This document shows positions 4,979 through 11,922 of a DNA stretch of 45,137 nucleotides, one piece after another; positions within the stretch are counted from its first letter, which is position 1, and the number at the start of each line of letters is the position of its first letter. Source of the DNA: Candidatus Methanoperedens sp. (GTDB taxonomy: Archaea > Halobacteriota > Methanosarcinia > Methanosarcinales > Methanoperedenaceae); contig JAPZAO010000158.1 of NCBI GenBank assembly GCA_027460615.1, positions 1 to 45,137 of the forward strand. The letters are read 5' to 3'. The position numbers and the translations under genes are program-made. Below the pieces are notes generated by a model, which was not told where the DNA came from, made no database searches, and saw only the letters and a list, made by a program, of their open reading frames with translations.

Positions 4979-5039
4979 AGACTGGATTTCACTGGCATTT
5001 CGTTCAGCGAAAAAAATGTCAGGACTCTACACACAGTTT

Positions 5040-5135
5040 GGAATGGGAGCTTTGCACCTCAAGTACCGTTTTTAAGCGACTTTAGATGCAGACAAGGGAC
5101 TTTAGGTGCAAGTTAAAATGCTTACATCTAAATAT
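5040..5135. repeat. Cluster of direct and inverted copies of a TTTAGGTGCAA motif
   Basis: Between the IorA-like gene and the R-M island there are two direct copies, GACTTTAGATGCA at 5078-5090 and GACTTTAGGTGCAA at 5098-5111, 20 bases apart. Inverted relatives are TTTGCACCTCAAG at 5051-5063 and CTTACATCTAAAT at 5121-5133. The 14-bp form recurs exactly at 8281-8294. This could be a recombination site, a set of operators for the island, or both. Confidence 0.6.
5098..5111 (+). repeat. Left 14-bp direct repeat of the R-M island
   Basis: GACTTTAGGTGCAA is identical to 8281-8294. The two copies enclose the four-gene AT-rich R-M cluster and nothing else, so they may mark the edges of an inserted unit. 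The identity is exact over 14 bases and stops on both sides. Confidence 0.7.
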
Positions 5136-5157
5136 CTCTTAAACATGTAATCATCCA

Positions 5158-5388
5158 ATGAAGTGCCATGAAGAAGTTTTAAAGGCTACAAAAAAAATCG
5201 TTAAATCGAAAGGTGTGAATGAATTTACACCAGAAGAAGTTATAAACTATATGACAGATTCAGAATATGAAAAATCGACTATTAGAGCAGAAATTGTTTC
5301 AAGATGCTGTATTAATGCGCCTGCCAATCATCTTGTGCGATACAAATACTTTGAACGAATCGGTCATGGATTGTATAAAATAAGATAG
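5158..5388 (+). CDS. DUF7669-type small DNA-binding-like protein
   Basis: A 76-residue protein resembling the family now called DUF7669, short proteins often found near restriction or other defence genes and thought to adopt a winged-helix fold. Readable blocks are an N-terminal KIVKSKGVNEFTPEEVINYM helix pair, ESTIRAEIVSRCCINAP-like central segment (here KSTIRAEIVSRCCINAP) and a C-terminal ERIGHGLYKI wing. The start is the ATG at 5158, with AT-rich promoter-like DNA before it and no strong ribosome binding site. It is the first gene of the R-M island and may control its expression; that role is inferred from position. Confidence 0.65.
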   Translation: MKCHEEVLKATKKIVKSKGVNEFTPEEVINYMTDSEYEKSTIRAEIVSRCCINAPANHLVRYKYFERIGHGLYKIR

Positions 5389-5472
5389 CCCCGCAAGAGA
5401 CCAGTTCAGAATTATTTTCAGATTAAAAAAACCCCTGCCAGATTCCAAAGATAAGCCGATATTGGAGATAGA

Positions 5473-5682
5473 ATGGCACGAGCAATAGAGTACAGCCCCG
5501 AAGAGAAGCGCATCATTAATACATTATATATAGCCCATAAACCACTTACTACAAAGAATATCTCCGAGAGGGCAGAAATGGCTTGGAAGACGGCGAAAAA
5601 ATATCTGGTGCAGTTGTATGGGAAAGGCATTGTTGATTACGGAAGGTCGGCAAATCTGTCTATTGGTGGGCTGAGAACATAA
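5473..5682 (+). CDS. Small winged helix-turn-helix protein
   Basis: A 69-residue protein with a single winged-helix pattern: EEKRIINTLYIAHKPLTTKNISERAEMAW is a helix-helix-turn-recognition helix, followed by KTAKKYLVQLYGKGIVDYG, the third helix and wing. It lies 84 bases after the DUF7669 gene and 10 bases before the methyltransferase gene, so it is probably co-transcribed with them. A control (C) protein role for the R-M system is a reasonable inference from size and position. Such short wHTH proteins are also common stand-alone regulators in archaea. Confidence 0.6.
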   Translation: MARAIEYSPEEKRIINTLYIAHKPLTTKNISERAEMAWKTAKKYLVQLYGKGIVDYGRSANLSIGGLRT

Positions 5683-5692
5683 GAGTGATTTG

Positions 5693-7735
5693 ATGGCTCA
5701 AAAAAAGAAACAAGAGGCATTAGGAGTTACAAGGTTTATCCAAGAAGTTCTTGTTAATCAGCTTAGCATACCACCAAATCAAATTGTTAATGATACTACA
5801 TTTCCTCAATACACCATTTCCAAAAGACCCGACCTCTTGATTTCTGAGTTTGAATATGACCGAGAAAAGAAAAACGACAGAGAGTTTATCGAGAATCTTG
5901 TAGCGTATGCAGAAGCTAAAGATGATTGTTCTGTAGGAGACAGCGATTGGAAAAACGCAATTAAACAAGGAAAGGTGAAATCGGGCAAATTGAAACTCCC
6001 ATATTTTATTGTGACAAACTTTAAAACTACGATATTTTATAATGCAAAGACAGGAAAAGAAATCAAGCTTAATAAAAATCCAATACGAGAGTTCCAAACA
6101 ATTGATATCCTGCGCCTTATAAAGAACCGCCTTACGAAGAACTCGAACTTAGATAATATTCTTACAAATGTGGATTCTTTGTCAGTTATTTCCGAAGCAG
6201 TATTTAACAAAAAACTTTGGGAATTGGCTAAGAGTTATAGGAATATAAAATTTGATAACAATAGCCAAAAAATTGATTTCACTATTGGTTTTATTTCTTT
6301 AGAATATTTTGAAGAAAAAGAAGAAATTGTTGGTAAGAAGGACAAAAATAAAATATATTGGTCGAATTGTTCCAATGGAACGGAAAATTACCCAGCAGAG
6401 AAAATAGTTGCAAATTTGTCAATGTATATAGAACGATTGGAAAAAGTTTCTCAATTTAGCGAGTTTGTAGACCTTATGGAAAAAGTAAGAATCGCTATAG
6501 TAGGAACAAAGACTGAGAAGCCTTTAGTTAATGAAGATGAAGTAAAGCAAATTTACGACGTAATAAATTCTATGAGACCACTCCATGGTTGTGGTTTCGA
6601 TTTATTTGGAGCGGTTTACGAAATGTTTGCGAGTAGCAAAGAAAAGAAGGAGTTTGGCGAATATTTTACACGTAGGCATTATGCACATATATTAGCTAAA
6701 TTACTTCTTTTAAATAAAACTTATTTTGATAAAGATAGTAAATTTAGAATATTAGACCCCGCTTGTGGCACTGGTGGTTTTTTGACAGAAAGTTTCAAAA
6801 TATTACATGCGGCTTATACCAAAACAAAAACACTTAATAAAGAGGCTATAAAATTCTTGGAAAAAGATTGTTTTTGGGGTATAGATGTTAAAAAAGAGAA
6901 CATATCTCGAACCAAACTCAACATGTTCCTTGTTGGTGATGGGCACACCAATATGATAGATGACAATTCACTCATAAAAGATTTTGATGGTGAGATGTGG
7001 GATTACATCATAACTAATCCCCCATACGGTGCAGGTACAATAAAAGCAGGAGCAACTAAAATATCATCAAATCGTACAGAAATAGCATTCTTATGTAAAG
7101 TAATTGATTTGCTCAAGGATGGGGGGATGGCATGTATTATACTTCCTGATGGCATTCTTGAGAATCCAAGTTTATCTGGTCTTCGGGAAGAACTATTGGA
7201 AAAATGTGAAGTTTATGGCATTGTATCTTTACCTAAATTTGCTTTTGCGCCATACACCAAAGAAAAGACATATGCTGTATATCTAAGAAAGAAAAATAAA
7301 GCGATAACAAAAATCCAGAAAAACCCAATCTGGATGTATATTATAGATAATGATGGTTTAGCCAATTCAGACAAACGTTTCCCTACGAAGCTTCGGAATA
7401 ACCGCAATGGTTGGATGCATGACGAGATTTCTGGCTGGGTGAGCACAGACGGTGAAGAAATGTATGGTCTATTAGAAGAACGATGGTTGAATTTTGACGA
7501 TTCGGCTACTAATGGAACTGAATGGATAACTGAAAAAGGAGAGAAAATGAAACTTAGAAAAGGAGGCTATATAGAAATGTCGAAAATTGTTAATCCTAAA
7601 ACATACTATTGTCTTTTGCCTGAGTACTATCTCCGTCCATTTGAACCAAACTTCATAACAGAGAAACAGTTGTTTAAAGAAGCGCATAAAGTTGAAAAGG
7701 AATTAGAGGTTTTACTTGATGGTAAAGTTCCTTGA
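5693..7735 (+). CDS. Nuclease-domain/N6-adenine methyltransferase fusion (HsdM-like, BcgI-A-like)
   Basis: A 680-residue protein. Residues 1 to about 150 resemble the HsdR N-terminal nuclease fold: RPDLLI with D47, then AEAKD with E74 and K76, a PD-(D/E)XK arrangement. A helical HsdM N-terminal region with FGEYFTRRHYAHILAKLL follows, then the gamma-class adenine-N6 methyltransferase core with DPACGTGGF (S-adenosylmethionine site, about residues 355-363) and NPPYG (catalytic, about 442-446). The layout matches type IIB/IIG enzymes such as BcgI subunit A, which pair with a separate specificity subunit and have no motor helicase. ATG at 5693 is preceded by GTGAT; a TTG sits at 5690. Overlaps the specificity gene by 17 bases. 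Base composition is AT-richer than the flanks. Confidence 0.8.
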   Translation: MAQKKKQEALGVTRFIQEVLVNQLSIPPNQIVNDTTFPQYTISKRPDLLISEFEYDREKKNDREFIENLVAYAEAKDDCSVGDSDWKNAIKQGKVKSGKLKLPYFIVTNFKTTIFYNAKTGKEIKLNKNPIREFQTIDILRLIKNRLTKNSNLDNILTNVDSLSVISEAVFNKKLWELAKSYRNIKFDNNSQKIDFTIGFISLEYFEEKEEIVGKKDKNKIYWSNCSNGTENYPAEKIVANLSMYIERLEKVSQFSEFVDLMEKVRIAIVGTKTEKPLVNEDEVKQIYDVINSMRPLHGCGFDLFGAVYEMFASSKEKKEFGEYFTRRHYAHILAKLLLLNKTYFDKDSKFRILDPACGTGGFLTESFKILHAAYTKTKTLNKEAIKFLEKDCFWGIDVKKENISRTKLNMFLVGDGHTNMIDDNSLIKDFDGEMWDYIITNPPYGAGTIKAGATKISSNRTEIAFLCKVIDLLKDGGMACIILPDGILENPSLSGLREELLEKCEVYGIVSLPKFAFAPYTKEKTYAVYLRKKNKAITKIQKNPIWMYIIDNDGLANSDKRFPTKLRNNRNGWMHDEISGWVSTDGEEMYGLLEERWLNFDDSATNGTEWITEKGEKMKLRKGGYIEMSKIVNPKTYYCLLPEYYLRPFEPNFITEKQLFKEAHKVEKELEVLLDGKVP

Positions 7736-8276
7736 TTTATTCGACCCTATAAAAAAGGGTGATTTTGGACTCACGGAAGAAGCAATTTACAAATCAATTC
7801 AACATGGTGGGGTGTTCATACCTGTTTGGGGAGGGAATCAAGACCATATAGTAGCAGATAGATTTGTCTCAAAAAATGGTAGAACAAAACACAATCAACC
7901 CATTACAATATTTAAAGGGGAAGGAATAATAATAAGTCTCGATGGGAGTGCGGGGAGTATGACGTTTAAGAAAAACGAAAGATTTGCTTTGAATCATCAC
8001 GCAGGGTTTTTTAAAGTGAAAAAAGGTGCAAAAAATATGATTATTCCTGAGTTTTTTGCTCTCTTTTATCAGAAACAGCTCCAAGAAGCAAGTATTAGCG
8101 AAGGTTCAAAAACCCTAACATTAGACCAAATTTATTCAATGGATTTCGAGATACCCCCTTATACAGTTCAACAAAGGATTATGTCTAAAATTAAACCTCT
8201 TTTAGAGAAAAAGAAAAAATTAGCGGGTATCAATTCTAAAATTGAATCGTTGTTTGCTAAAAAAATTGTACAATAA
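7719..8276 (+). CDS. Half-size restriction-modification specificity (S) subunit
   Basis: A 185-residue HsdS-like protein with one target recognition domain (about residues 1-140) and one conserved helix (about 150-185, QQRIMSKIKPLLEKKKKLAGINSKI). The family signatures SEGSKTLTLDQIYSMDFEIPP and QQRI are clear. Canonical type I S subunits carry two such halves and about 400 residues. A single half usually acts as a dimer and then recognises a symmetrical split target, which is an inference here. The start ATG at 7719 lies inside the end of the methyltransferase gene, so translation is coupled. There is no hsdR motor gene downstream; the island ends at the repeat at 8281. Confidence 0.8.
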   Translation: MVKFLDLFDPIKKGDFGLTEEAIYKSIQHGGVFIPVWGGNQDHIVADRFVSKNGRTKHNQPITIFKGEGIIISLDGSAGSMTFKKNERFALNHHAGFFKVKKGAKNMIIPEFFALFYQKQLQEASISEGSKTLTLDQIYSMDFEIPPYTVQQRIMSKIKPLLEKKKKLAGINSKIESLFAKKIVQ

Positions 8277-8280
8277 CTTC

Positions 8281-8312
8281 GACTTTAGGTGCAATTGCGA
8301 TTTAAGTGCAAA
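8281..8312 (+). repeat. Right direct repeat pair of the R-M island
   Basis: GACTTTAGGTGCAA at 8281-8294 is identical to 5098-5111. A diverged second copy, GATTTAAGTGCAAA, follows at 8299-8312. The tandem pair mirrors the tandem pair at the left edge (5078 and 5098). Confidence 0.7.
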
Positions 8313-8373
8313 GCTTGGAGCGGGGAAAGGTATATGAATAAACGGAATTATTGTGGAGCCAAACAAATACTTT

Positions 8374-8378
8374 GGAGG
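8374..8378 (+). promoter_or_regulatory. Ribosome binding site deciding the DUF5350 start
   Basis: GGAGG lies 11 bases before the ATG at 8390 and rules out the in-frame TTG at 8351 as the main start. Confidence 0.6.
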
Positions 8379-8389
8379 ATATAAATTAC

Positions 8390-8566
8390 ATGGGAAAAAC
8401 AGGTACAACAAAATGGGGCAGAGTTAAAGGAAGGAAAGGGAATGTAATAATGGTTCCCGAGTCCGAACTCGCATACAAGCGCCCCGGCCCTGCGCAGCGA
8501 TACACATCAGCTGGTGCTAAGCGCAAGAAGATAGCACGCTCGCCAAAAGCGCTAGTCAAAGCATAA
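8390..8566 (+). CDS. DUF5350 small basic protein
   Basis: A 58-residue, strongly basic protein (MGKTGTTKWGRVKGRKGNVI, then PGPAQRYTSAGAKRKK near the middle and end). This pattern fits DUF5350, a small family that I know only from methanogens and close relatives. Its abundance of Lys/Arg and Gly suggests nucleic acid or ribosome association, but no function is established. It is a single gene with its own upstream region just beyond the R-M island, so it may be the original neighbour of the IorA-like gene before the island arrived. Confidence 0.75.
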   Translation: MGKTGTTKWGRVKGRKGNVIMVPESELAYKRPGPAQRYTSAGAKRKKIARSPKALVKA

Positions 8567-10467: not shown

Positions 10468-11892
10468 TTATTTACTATAATCGAAATCAAAAAAGACATT
10501 GCCTCCGATTAGTTTTACATTTTTTACTTTATATTCTCTAATTATTTTGTCTGGTCCCTTTTGTTTAAGATAAGTTACATTACCATCTTTTCTAGAATTA
10601 GCATCGAAATATGGTTTTGAACGGAATTCTGTTGCGTCTCCTATATCGTTTGGGATATTGTTGCTTTCACCTGCCTGGATTTCTATGGCCAATTGTAAGG
10701 CATTTTCCCAACCTTTTGAATTAACATCTGGTTTAAATGCCTGTAAATTACCCCCTTCCCCCTTCAAACATGAATATTTACTTGCTGTTAACACACTCCT
10801 GAAATTACCTTTAGATTTATTAATAATATTCCATGCAACTGCATTTTGTCCTTTCAAATTAGTTGCTTGTTCGGCATAAATAACCCTTGCCATAAGTTCC
10901 ACATCTGAAAGTTTCATTAATTCATCTTGACTATTCACCGCCTTACCAAACTCCAAATTATTAACTTTTTCAAGTTGATTTTTATATTCATCCAGGATTT
11001 GATCGATTTTATCCTGATATTCTTTTTTAATATCGTCAAGAGTCTTTAAAGTTTCAGGATTACTAAAATCATACTCTACTTTTTTAACTTTTTCAAATTG
11101 GTCTTTATATTCATCCAGGATTTGGTCGATTTTGTCCTGATACTCTTTTTTAATGCCGTCCAAATTCTTTTCTATTTCAGAAACACTAAAATCAGCGTCT
11201 TTATCATTAGCTTTTTCGAGTAAAACTTTATTATCATCATGGATTTGATTGATTTTGTCCTGAGACTCTTTTTTAATAACCTCAAAATTCTTTACTATAT
11301 CAGAATTACTGAGATCACTATCTTCCTGGTTTTCTGGGAGGTTCTCCATCTCTTCGGTAAATGCCTCAATATCATCAAGCTGATCTTTATGCTTATCCAT
11401 TATTTTGTTGATTTTCTTTTCTAAATTCTTATAAGTGGCAGGATTACTGAAATCAACATTTCCAAAGTTTTTTTGATATTCCATGTTTGCCGAAATAATC
11501 TCATCAAAAAAAGAGGCCATTTCTTTATAGTTTTTCGGAAGTTTTTTATTTGCAAAAGCATTTGCAGAAAAAGTAGAAGAAAAGCCTATATTTTTATAGT
11601 TTTCCAGAACTTTTTTATAGGCATCTGCAGAAGCTGCTTGTAAGGTGCCGATTTTTTTATAGTTTTCTTGGACTTCTTTCTGTGCATTTGCAGCAGCTTC
11701 ATCAAATGTACCGATTTTTTTATAGTTTTCTTGGACTTCTTTTTGTGCATTTGCAGCAGCTGCTTGTAAGGTGCCGATTTTTTTATAGTTTTCTTGGATT
11801 TCTTTTTGTGCATTTGCAGTTACTTCATCTAAAGTAGCAATATTATGTTTTCTTTGATTTTTTACATCCTTAGATTTATTTTTTTTAGGCAT
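10468..11892 (-). CDS. Repeat/coiled-coil protein with C-terminal SleB-like cell wall hydrolase domain
   Basis: A 474-residue protein without a signal peptide. After a basic N terminus, residues 20-103 hold four 21-residue repeats (variants of TLQAAAANAQKEVQENYKKIG) and a degenerate fifth. Residues about 190-320 hold three roughly 45-residue coiled-coil repeats built on IKKEYQDKIDQILDEYK. The last 150 residues match the Hydrolase_2/SleB fold: ELMARVIYAEQATNLKGQNAVAWNIINK with a likely catalytic Glu, then a TEFRSKPYFDANSRK segment. SleB domains cleave peptidoglycan, which this archaeon should not have. Possible roles are attack on bacterial neighbours, a phage-derived lysin, or cleavage of another polymer. 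ATG at 11892 is chosen for GGGAG upstream; a TTG at 11910 is possible. Confidence 0.7.
   Translation of the reverse strand: MPKKNKSKDVKNQRKHNIATLDEVTANAQKEIQENYKKIGTLQAAAANAQKEVQENYKKIGTFDEAAANAQKEVQENYKKIGTLQAASADAYKKVLENYKNIGFSSTFSANAFANKKLPKNYKEMASFFDEIISANMEYQKNFGNVDFSNPATYKNLEKKINKIMDKHKDQLDDIEAFTEEMENLPENQEDSDLSNSDIVKNFEVIKKESQDKINQIHDDNKVLLEKANDKDADFSVSEIEKNLDGIKKEYQDKIDQILDEYKDQFEKVKKVEYDFSNPETLKTLDDIKKEYQDKIDQILDEYKNQLEKVNNLEFGKAVNSQDELMKLSDVELMARVIYAEQATNLKGQNAVAWNIINKSKGNFRSVLTASKYSCLKGEGGNLQAFKPDVNSKGWENALQLAIEIQAGESNNIPNDIGDATEFRSKPYFDANSRKDGNVTYLKQKGPDKIIREYKVKNVKLIGGNVFFDFDYSK
11584..11835 (-). repeat. Four 63-bp tandem repeats in the SleB-like gene
   Basis: Four near-identical 63-bp units encode the 21-residue repeats, at 11773-11835, 11710-11772, 11647-11709 and 11584-11646. 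High nucleotide identity (for example the shared TTTTTTATAGTTTTC on the plus strand) suggests recent duplication and possible copy-number variation between strains. Confidence 0.8.
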
Positions 11893-11922
11893 ACCATATC
11901 TCCCATTCAATAGGATGAGATT

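Follow-up and report, generated by a model that had tools for sequence, protein, structure and literature searches.

How did a four-gene restriction-modification (R-M) block come to lie directly in front of the gene for a DUF5350 protein in Candidatus Methanoperedens? We addressed this question for contig JAPZAO010000158.1 of assembly GCA_027460615.1, positions 1 to 45,137 (the window, that is, the whole stretch of DNA that was analysed). A preliminary description had drawn attention to an AT-rich island bounded by an exact 14-bp direct repeat, between an IorA-like gene and the DUF5350 gene, and had proposed a cassette moved in trans or by homologous exchange at repeat pairs. Based on comparison of this island with others in the same and in related genomes, we favour, with a probability of roughly 0.82, the reading that positions 5048-8315 are a non-autonomous DDE transposon with a compact R-M cargo, moved in trans and inserted upstream of a promoter.

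Ends of the island and of its relatives

The 14-mer GACTTTAGGTGCAA is present exactly at 5098-5111 (+) and 8281-8294, as described before, and the whole assembly (2.39 Mb, 82% complete) holds four exact copies, two in the window and two on contig C128. The proposed search of the same genome for further islands was successful, since the two motif clusters on C128 bracket a second island of 678 bp between tRNA-Pro and the glutamate dehydrogenase gene (gdh, assigned by eye). Diverged companions, also noted earlier, lie at 5078-5091 (+, 2 mismatches), at 5052-5065 (-, 2 mismatches) and, by eye, at about 8300-8311, one base short. With up to 3 mismatches the motif has 4 matches in the window at a chance mean of 3.97; because this tally equals chance, motif counts within the window were dropped as evidence and the weight rests on exactness, clustering and architecture.

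Comparison of the window and C128 islands revealed terminal inverted repeats of 17 bp, RGCTTTGCACCTAAAGT / ACTTTAAGTGCAAAGCY, at both edges of the element, a feature of non-autonomous DDE transposons. The 14-mers, which had been taken for the edges of the block, represent the inner copies of a repeat, M (ACTTTAGGTGCAA), from which both ends are built, and the element reaches out to 5048 and 8315. The left end (LE, 5048-5111, +; LE model E = 1e-18) carries the terminal inverted repeat AGCTTTGCACCTCAAGT, an inverted M' at 5052 and direct M copies at 5079 and 5099, with start spacings of 27 and 20; the first exact 14-mer corresponds to the innermost M of this end. The right end (RE, 8281-8315, +; RE model E = 2.8e-10) has M at 8282, a degenerate outer M at 8300-8311 and the right terminal inverted repeat GTGCAAAGCT at its terminus. 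As the conserved termini extend past the 14-mers, these were ruled out as att sites. In the window's own genome the RGCTTTGCACCTAAAGT-type terminal pattern with 0-2 mismatches marks the four island ends and no other place; the other 5 matches have 3 mismatches, and a reversed control gave 11 matches at up to 3.

The same ends recur across the genus. In 60 metagenome-assembled genomes, the window's own included, a degenerate terminal pattern was found at 61 places in 25 genomes, compared to 7 for the reversed control. Alignments of 23 left ends and 20 right ends gave the end models R1 and R2, with the architecture inverted M', +27 to M, +20 to M on the left and M, 20, M, 18, M on the right. LE-model matches at E <= 0.1 were obtained in 25 of the 31 genus genomes (own included), 21 of them at the stricter E <= 1e-4, and RE-model matches at E <= 0.1 in 24. 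A scan for the exact pattern in a collection of 84,980 species genomes, which possibly lacks the window's own records, returned 5 matches, four from Candidatus Methanoperedens and one from an 'uncultured archaeon', and the exact LE pattern had no match in viral contigs. Additionally, an orphan right end was seen in the window's own genome (L007 11019-11055), with no left end detectable. A 44-bp repeat, CCACAGAGAGCGCAGAGGACACAGAG, occurs twice nearby (L007 9029-9072 and 9613-9656), with a related stretch upstream of gdh in L232; it is a separate intergenic repeat family.

Across the Candidatus Methanoperedens elements, like ends enclose unrelated cargo. We tallied 36 cargo proteins (open reading frames (ORFs) of at least 75 aa, one overlapping ORF dropped), annotated with Pfam and assigned to elements by eye. 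The cargo consists of R-M genes in the window, an ABC exporter with a TetR protein in L048, an HD protein in L047 and an orotidine monophosphate decarboxylase in L054, a pair whose right end is weak. Many of the 36 proteins have no Pfam family, and Pfam found no transposase family among them. Parts of the L048 exporter cargo, 131 bp to 2.3 kb long, recur at 85-95% identity at five further loci, which belong to three other genomes (L068 and L158 in G016, L073 and L074 in G027, L088 in G019), and L165 holds the L050 cargo at 86%; the assembly may have broken a single element into some of these loci. Among the 20 hand-picked element pairs introduced below, five are cargo-free miniature elements of 68-106 bp, in size steps of about 18-20 bp.

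Target duplications and promoter phasing

A set of 20 LE/RE pairs was hand-picked from the match lists of the two models, and 9 further pairs with partial ends were kept out of it. A 9-bp flanking identity of at least 7/9 was found in 17 of the 20 pairs, compared to 6 of 380 mismatched pairs. The flank identity was high at length 9 only (0.84 vs 0.28), the means at the other lengths from 3 to 15 being 0.18-0.34. In the window the duplicated target is TGGAATGGG at 5039-5047 on the left and TGGAGCGGG at 8316-8324 on the right, identical at 7 of 9 positions. One locus, L086, has an 8/9 duplication and no M copies and was left out as chance or unclear.

For the sister element on C128 the empty site was observed in two relatives with a single target copy before gdh. 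In L232 the tRNA-Pro is identical (75/75, ungapped) and lies 200 bp before gdh, with a single TTCTTCCATG present and the element absent, and L231 has a single TTCTTCCATG copy with one change and a tRNA-Pro matching at 58/75, ungapped. The preliminary description had expected an empty site to keep a single 14-mer; the empty allele of the C128 island keeps one 9-bp target copy instead. At 27 other DUF5350 loci, the 160 nt upstream of the gene hold a similar promoter (GGGGAAAGGTWTATGAA type, with small changes) and no element, and the neighbours differ. The suggestion that IorA and DUF5350 were the original neighbours was not borne out elsewhere, as none of 28 other IorA loci had DUF5350 within the 0.5-1.5 kb of flank examined. 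The 7/9 identity of the window duplication nevertheless suggests that in this lineage the two genes were neighbours at the time of insertion.

The duplications also bear on whether the cassette was exchanged by homologous or site-specific recombination between the 14-mers, in the manner of an integron. The exact direct repeats at both sides are what such exchange would leave, and the miniature elements of 68, 86 and 105-106 bp resemble a collapse between M copies. However, the conserved inverted termini reach beyond the 14-mers, exchange at repeat pairs fails to explain 9-bp duplications of unrelated sequence, and no site-specific recombinase family was found among the 36 cargo proteins, the rest of the genome not having been searched for one. 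We consider this explanation very unlikely; of the two routes proposed earlier, movement in trans is the probable one. Integron cassettes have one attC-type site each, whereas the elements described here have paired inverted termini and 9-bp duplications (the genome was not searched for an integron integrase).

The insertions are also phased with respect to promoters. Immediately outside the right duplication lies the DUF5350 promoter (8325-8338, +), formed by a gaaagg resembling a transcription factor B (TFB) recognition element (BRE) and the TATA-like TATATGAA, which begins 16 nt outside the element; the best-scoring position of our matcher at this promoter was at offset 18 with 2 mismatches. 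This BRE/TATA stretch is conserved in relatives, and the DUF5350 gene itself (8390-8566, +; Pfam PF17299, E = 2e-24) lies outside the element behind the adjoining promoter. In the 20-pair set a TATA-like box started 13-19 nt outside the element in 17 pairs, compared to 7.5 +/- 2.2 for intergenic positions and 8.45 +/- 2.15 for promoter zones (10-130 nt upstream of ORFs), and none of 2000 random draws in either control reached 17. With a set of 24 insertions, chosen partly by duplication and not by TATA, a TATA-like 8-mer started at 13-19 nt in 21, compared to 8.65 +/- 2.5 for intergenic positions, a value that 0 of 400 draws reached. When at most one mismatch to the TATA box was allowed, offset 16 accounted for 8 insertions and every other offset for at most 2. 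The six bases between the duplication and the TATA box are BRE-like, and position 12 is A in 17 of the 20 pairs (better TATA side taken). Left and right ends face the promoter equally often (10:10 in the 20 pairs, 7:8 among the 15 with at most 2 mismatches). An outward ORF of at least 80 aa started within 200 nt on 11 of 20 TATA sides vs 6 of 20 other sides, a cut too long to register DUF5350 (58 aa) and similar short genes. Elsewhere in the order, 15 of 21 LE flanks from other families have the TATA box at 13-19, a set without L286 and L290, which share their site with L288, and without L292, whose LE match begins at model position 8. Of the 12 strict TATA matches within the first 54 nt there, 11 begin at 14-20, and complete copies with a 9/9 duplication were found in L287, L297 and L299. 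A fixed distance to a core promoter element is the mark of transposons that target the region upstream of promoters.

M clusters at a fixed distance upstream of TATA boxes could also be operators of a transcription factor, and the paired clusters around gene blocks would then mark a regulon and not an element. This leaves the 9-bp duplications at both outer edges unexplained, and they rule out an operator or promoter element alone. Moreover, like cargo stands beside different flanks in different genomes, empty alleles exist, and ends separated by as much as 5 kb form inverted pairs. We regard a regulon as extremely unlikely.

A candidate transposase and its place among known systems

Among 79 ORFs near unpaired ends there were two DDE_Tnp_1 and two SWIM matches, and the protein encoded at L055:9561-10814 combines both domains. 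Close homologues of this protein occur in the genus only in genomes G022 and G008, in both cases beside LE-type ends. In G022 the intact gene lies inside a complete element of 5,276 bp (L269 8268-13543), which has a 9/9 duplication with AATGTAAGC on both sides, repeat arrays with spacings of 18/20 and 20/26 and, on its right side, a TATA-like box at position 16; it also holds an unpaired M-type LE (L055:7413). Remnants of the transposase were found 0.4-2.4 kb inside the M-type LEs of L156, L085, L271, L280 and L282, with the 3' end towards the LE. The L085 fragment, from a sister genus, lies within an element bearing a 9/9 duplication. L271, L280 and L282 belong to another family; L280 and L282 were among 20 regions picked for their LE, and L271 was picked for its transposase. 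In G053 a composite of 5,905 bp with the transposase has CATTTTTTC on both sides, and the L269 and L265 elements are alike in end anatomy, 9-bp duplication and TATA offset.

Five intact relatives of the transposase share an alignable D-D-E triad and a CxC...CxH finger (residues assigned by eye). In NCBIfam the nearest model is IS5_2, and with NF033579 the five scored 109.0-131.4 bits against a cut-off of 140, so that the curated IS5 cut-off was not reached. Pfam assigned the L055 protein DDE_Tnp_1 and SWIM only and no Mutator-type domain (PF00872). A search of the PDB gave no relatives at E <= 1, and the AlphaFold2 model had a mean predicted local distance difference test score (pLDDT) of 47. 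The window's genome also has an IS5-like gene (L253), which at 27% identity was considered and not used.

We infer from these neighbourhoods that a SWIM-DDE transposase is the likely mover of the window element. A SWIM-finger enzyme of the L269 kind would bind the subterminal M arrays, with their period of 18-20 bp, together with the terminal inverted repeat, and would act in trans on the transposase-less cassette. Insertion yields the 9-bp duplication and falls 15 bp upstream of the TATA box, directly against the BRE; given this position, the element probably reads the promoter, or its complex of TATA-binding protein (TBP) and TFB, as the target and spares coding sequence.

Several observations weigh against the transposon reading or parts of it. 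A strict empty site of the window element was not found, and its own duplication has decayed to 7/9. In the 20-pair set L046 (2/9), L053 (1/9) and L084 (6/9) fall below 7/9, and only 1 of the 9 further pairs with partial, decayed ends reaches it. The LE match is absent at E <= 0.1 from 6 of the 31 genus genomes, and L007, L079 and L072 have no TATA match at 13-19 by the set matcher. The count of 15 of 21 LE flanks in other families was compared with other offsets only (maximum 7/21 outside overlapping offset ranges) and not with a random control. Regarding the mover, the repeats of L269, which is from another species of the genus, are diverged from the M type (TGTGTAWAAAGT), no intact transposase was found between M-type ends, and the window genome, 82% complete, has no close homologue (best 27%).

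An element of the same type could also be moved by a still-unknown transposase outside the SWIM-DDE family; in favour of this, no intact SWIM-DDE gene lies between M-type ends, and an intact close copy is present in only 1 of the 31 genus genomes. On the other side, both genus homologues and the sister-genus fragment lie beside LE-type ends, three further transposase loci in another family do so as well, and the shared anatomy, duplication and TATA offset of the L269 and L265 elements point to the SWIM-DDE family. A foreign mover is in our judgement unlikely. Going beyond the SWIM-DDE assignment, we propose tentatively, at slightly less than even odds, that an ancient archaeal SWIM-DDE family docks on TBP-TFB and inserts at its upstream edge, that it independently reached the 16-bp offset of TnGBS and the logic of Ty3, and that operons for defence and other functions are carried about by it in cassettes lacking a transposase.

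Parts of this scheme have known counterparts. Duplications of 9 bp are made by IS903, and the IS5 family in the broad, IS903-type sense is nearest by NCBIfam model; the five relatives score below its curated cut-offs, and in contrast to it they have an N-terminal SWIM finger and their elements have subterminal arrays. Plant Pack-MULEs also make 9-bp duplications and mobilise host genes without a transposase, but these are eukaryotic elements with long inverted repeats and gene fragments, whereas whole operons are carried here. Yeast Ty3 is targeted by TFIIIB (TBP, Brf1). The likeness is integration beside a TBP/TFIIB-type promoter complex, such tethering being what we infer for the archaeal elements; unlike them, Ty3 uses a retroelement integrase and Pol III promoters. 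Mobile insertion cassettes (MICs) have insertion sequence (IS)-like ends flanking cargo without transposase and are moved in trans, and an autonomous IS with similar ends occurs in their host. The window family resembles MICs and IS231-type elements in its IS-like ends around transposase-less cargo and its probable movement in trans; those elements have IS4-family ends, whereas multi-repeat ends, a 9-bp duplication and promoter targeting are found here. Passenger genes are treated in a passage of PMC2266710.

The closest parallel is provided by the bacterial p-MULT 3 elements, for which the relevant passages of PMC3942029 report that the distance between the right inverted repeat and the -35 box peaks at 16 bp; the same passages compare TnGBS with Ty3 and only speculate on the archaeal ISH6. 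Both groups are DDE elements at a fixed distance upstream of promoters, with the TATA box here starting at position 16. As described in those passages, p-MULT 3 elements use sigmaA promoters and Mutator-type transposases and insert mostly in one orientation, whereas the present family uses an archaeal TATA box, DDE_Tnp_1 with SWIM and both orientations alike, and has subterminal repeat arrays in addition. Bacteria are known to have both cargo cassettes and elements that target a site 16 bp upstream of promoters, and no archaeal counterpart was found in the literature searched, which was covered in part; on this basis the archaeal TATA version appears to be a new variant. A promoter-phased transposon family for archaea makes it testable whether a transposase reads TBP-TFB, an archaeal complex related to the machinery by which Ty3 is directed. 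Such a family would also offer restriction systems, exporters and other operons a way to pass between anaerobic methane-oxidising archaea although they encode no transposase themselves, and the end models R1 and R2 can be used to annotate hidden cargo islands.

Some features of the transposase-bearing loci were recorded separately. In L085 (2153-2664) a right terminus with a 9/9 duplication lies inside transposase coding sequence, a coding stretch serving as an end. Two other-family loci (L265 6815-7306, L266 6094-6654) have, next to the transposase gene, an ORF for a small protein whose cysteines look zinc-ribbon-like by eye, a candidate accessory or targeting factor. Internal and miniature arrays lie in or beside composites (L265 6710-6764 and 9217-9333, L267 8466-8583), which suggests nesting or collapse between repeat copies.

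Cargo and surroundings in the window

The block is AT-richer than its surroundings, as first described, with a GC content of 0.35 compared to 0.43 in the 2.5-kb flanks on either side; the window has about 0.47 to the left of the block and about 0.40 to the right, and a second, mostly AT-rich stretch at 10.5-15 kb. Pfam bore out the count of four genes with no integrase or transposase among them. All four are on the + strand. The first encodes a 76-aa DUF7669 protein (5158-5388; PF24706, E = 2.2e-6), and the second a 69-aa DUF7342-like, probably winged-helix protein (5473-5682; PF24033, E = 1.3e-5, below the gathering score) with weak CasR matches in PADLOC. They are followed by a 681-aa N6-adenine methyltransferase (5690-7735; N6_Mtase, E = 2.2e-31), which in PADLOC matches MTase_I (E = 9e-50) and REase_MTase_IIG (E = 1e-16) and whose N-terminal region (RPDLL...EAK) looks nuclease-like by eye. 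The last gene encodes a 186-aa specificity protein with one target-recognition domain (7716-8276; Methylase_S, E = 2.4e-11; Specificity_I in PADLOC). Judged by the methyltransferase and specificity domains, the cargo would be a compact R-M system of type IIG or type I-like organisation. Among 184 other genomes of the order, one has a homologue of the methyltransferase at E <= 1e-80, with 40% identity.

Further along the window, a 480-aa ORF (10468-11910, -) contains several near-identical NAQKEVQENYKKIGT-type repeats and, after them, a region that by eye looks like a cell-wall hydrolase. The 27 other loci show striking conservation of the DUF5350 leader (8325-8389; GGGGAAAGGTWTATGAA ... TTGGAGGA, ATG); this conservation exceeds what a plain promoter needs and perhaps reflects a regulated leader RNA.

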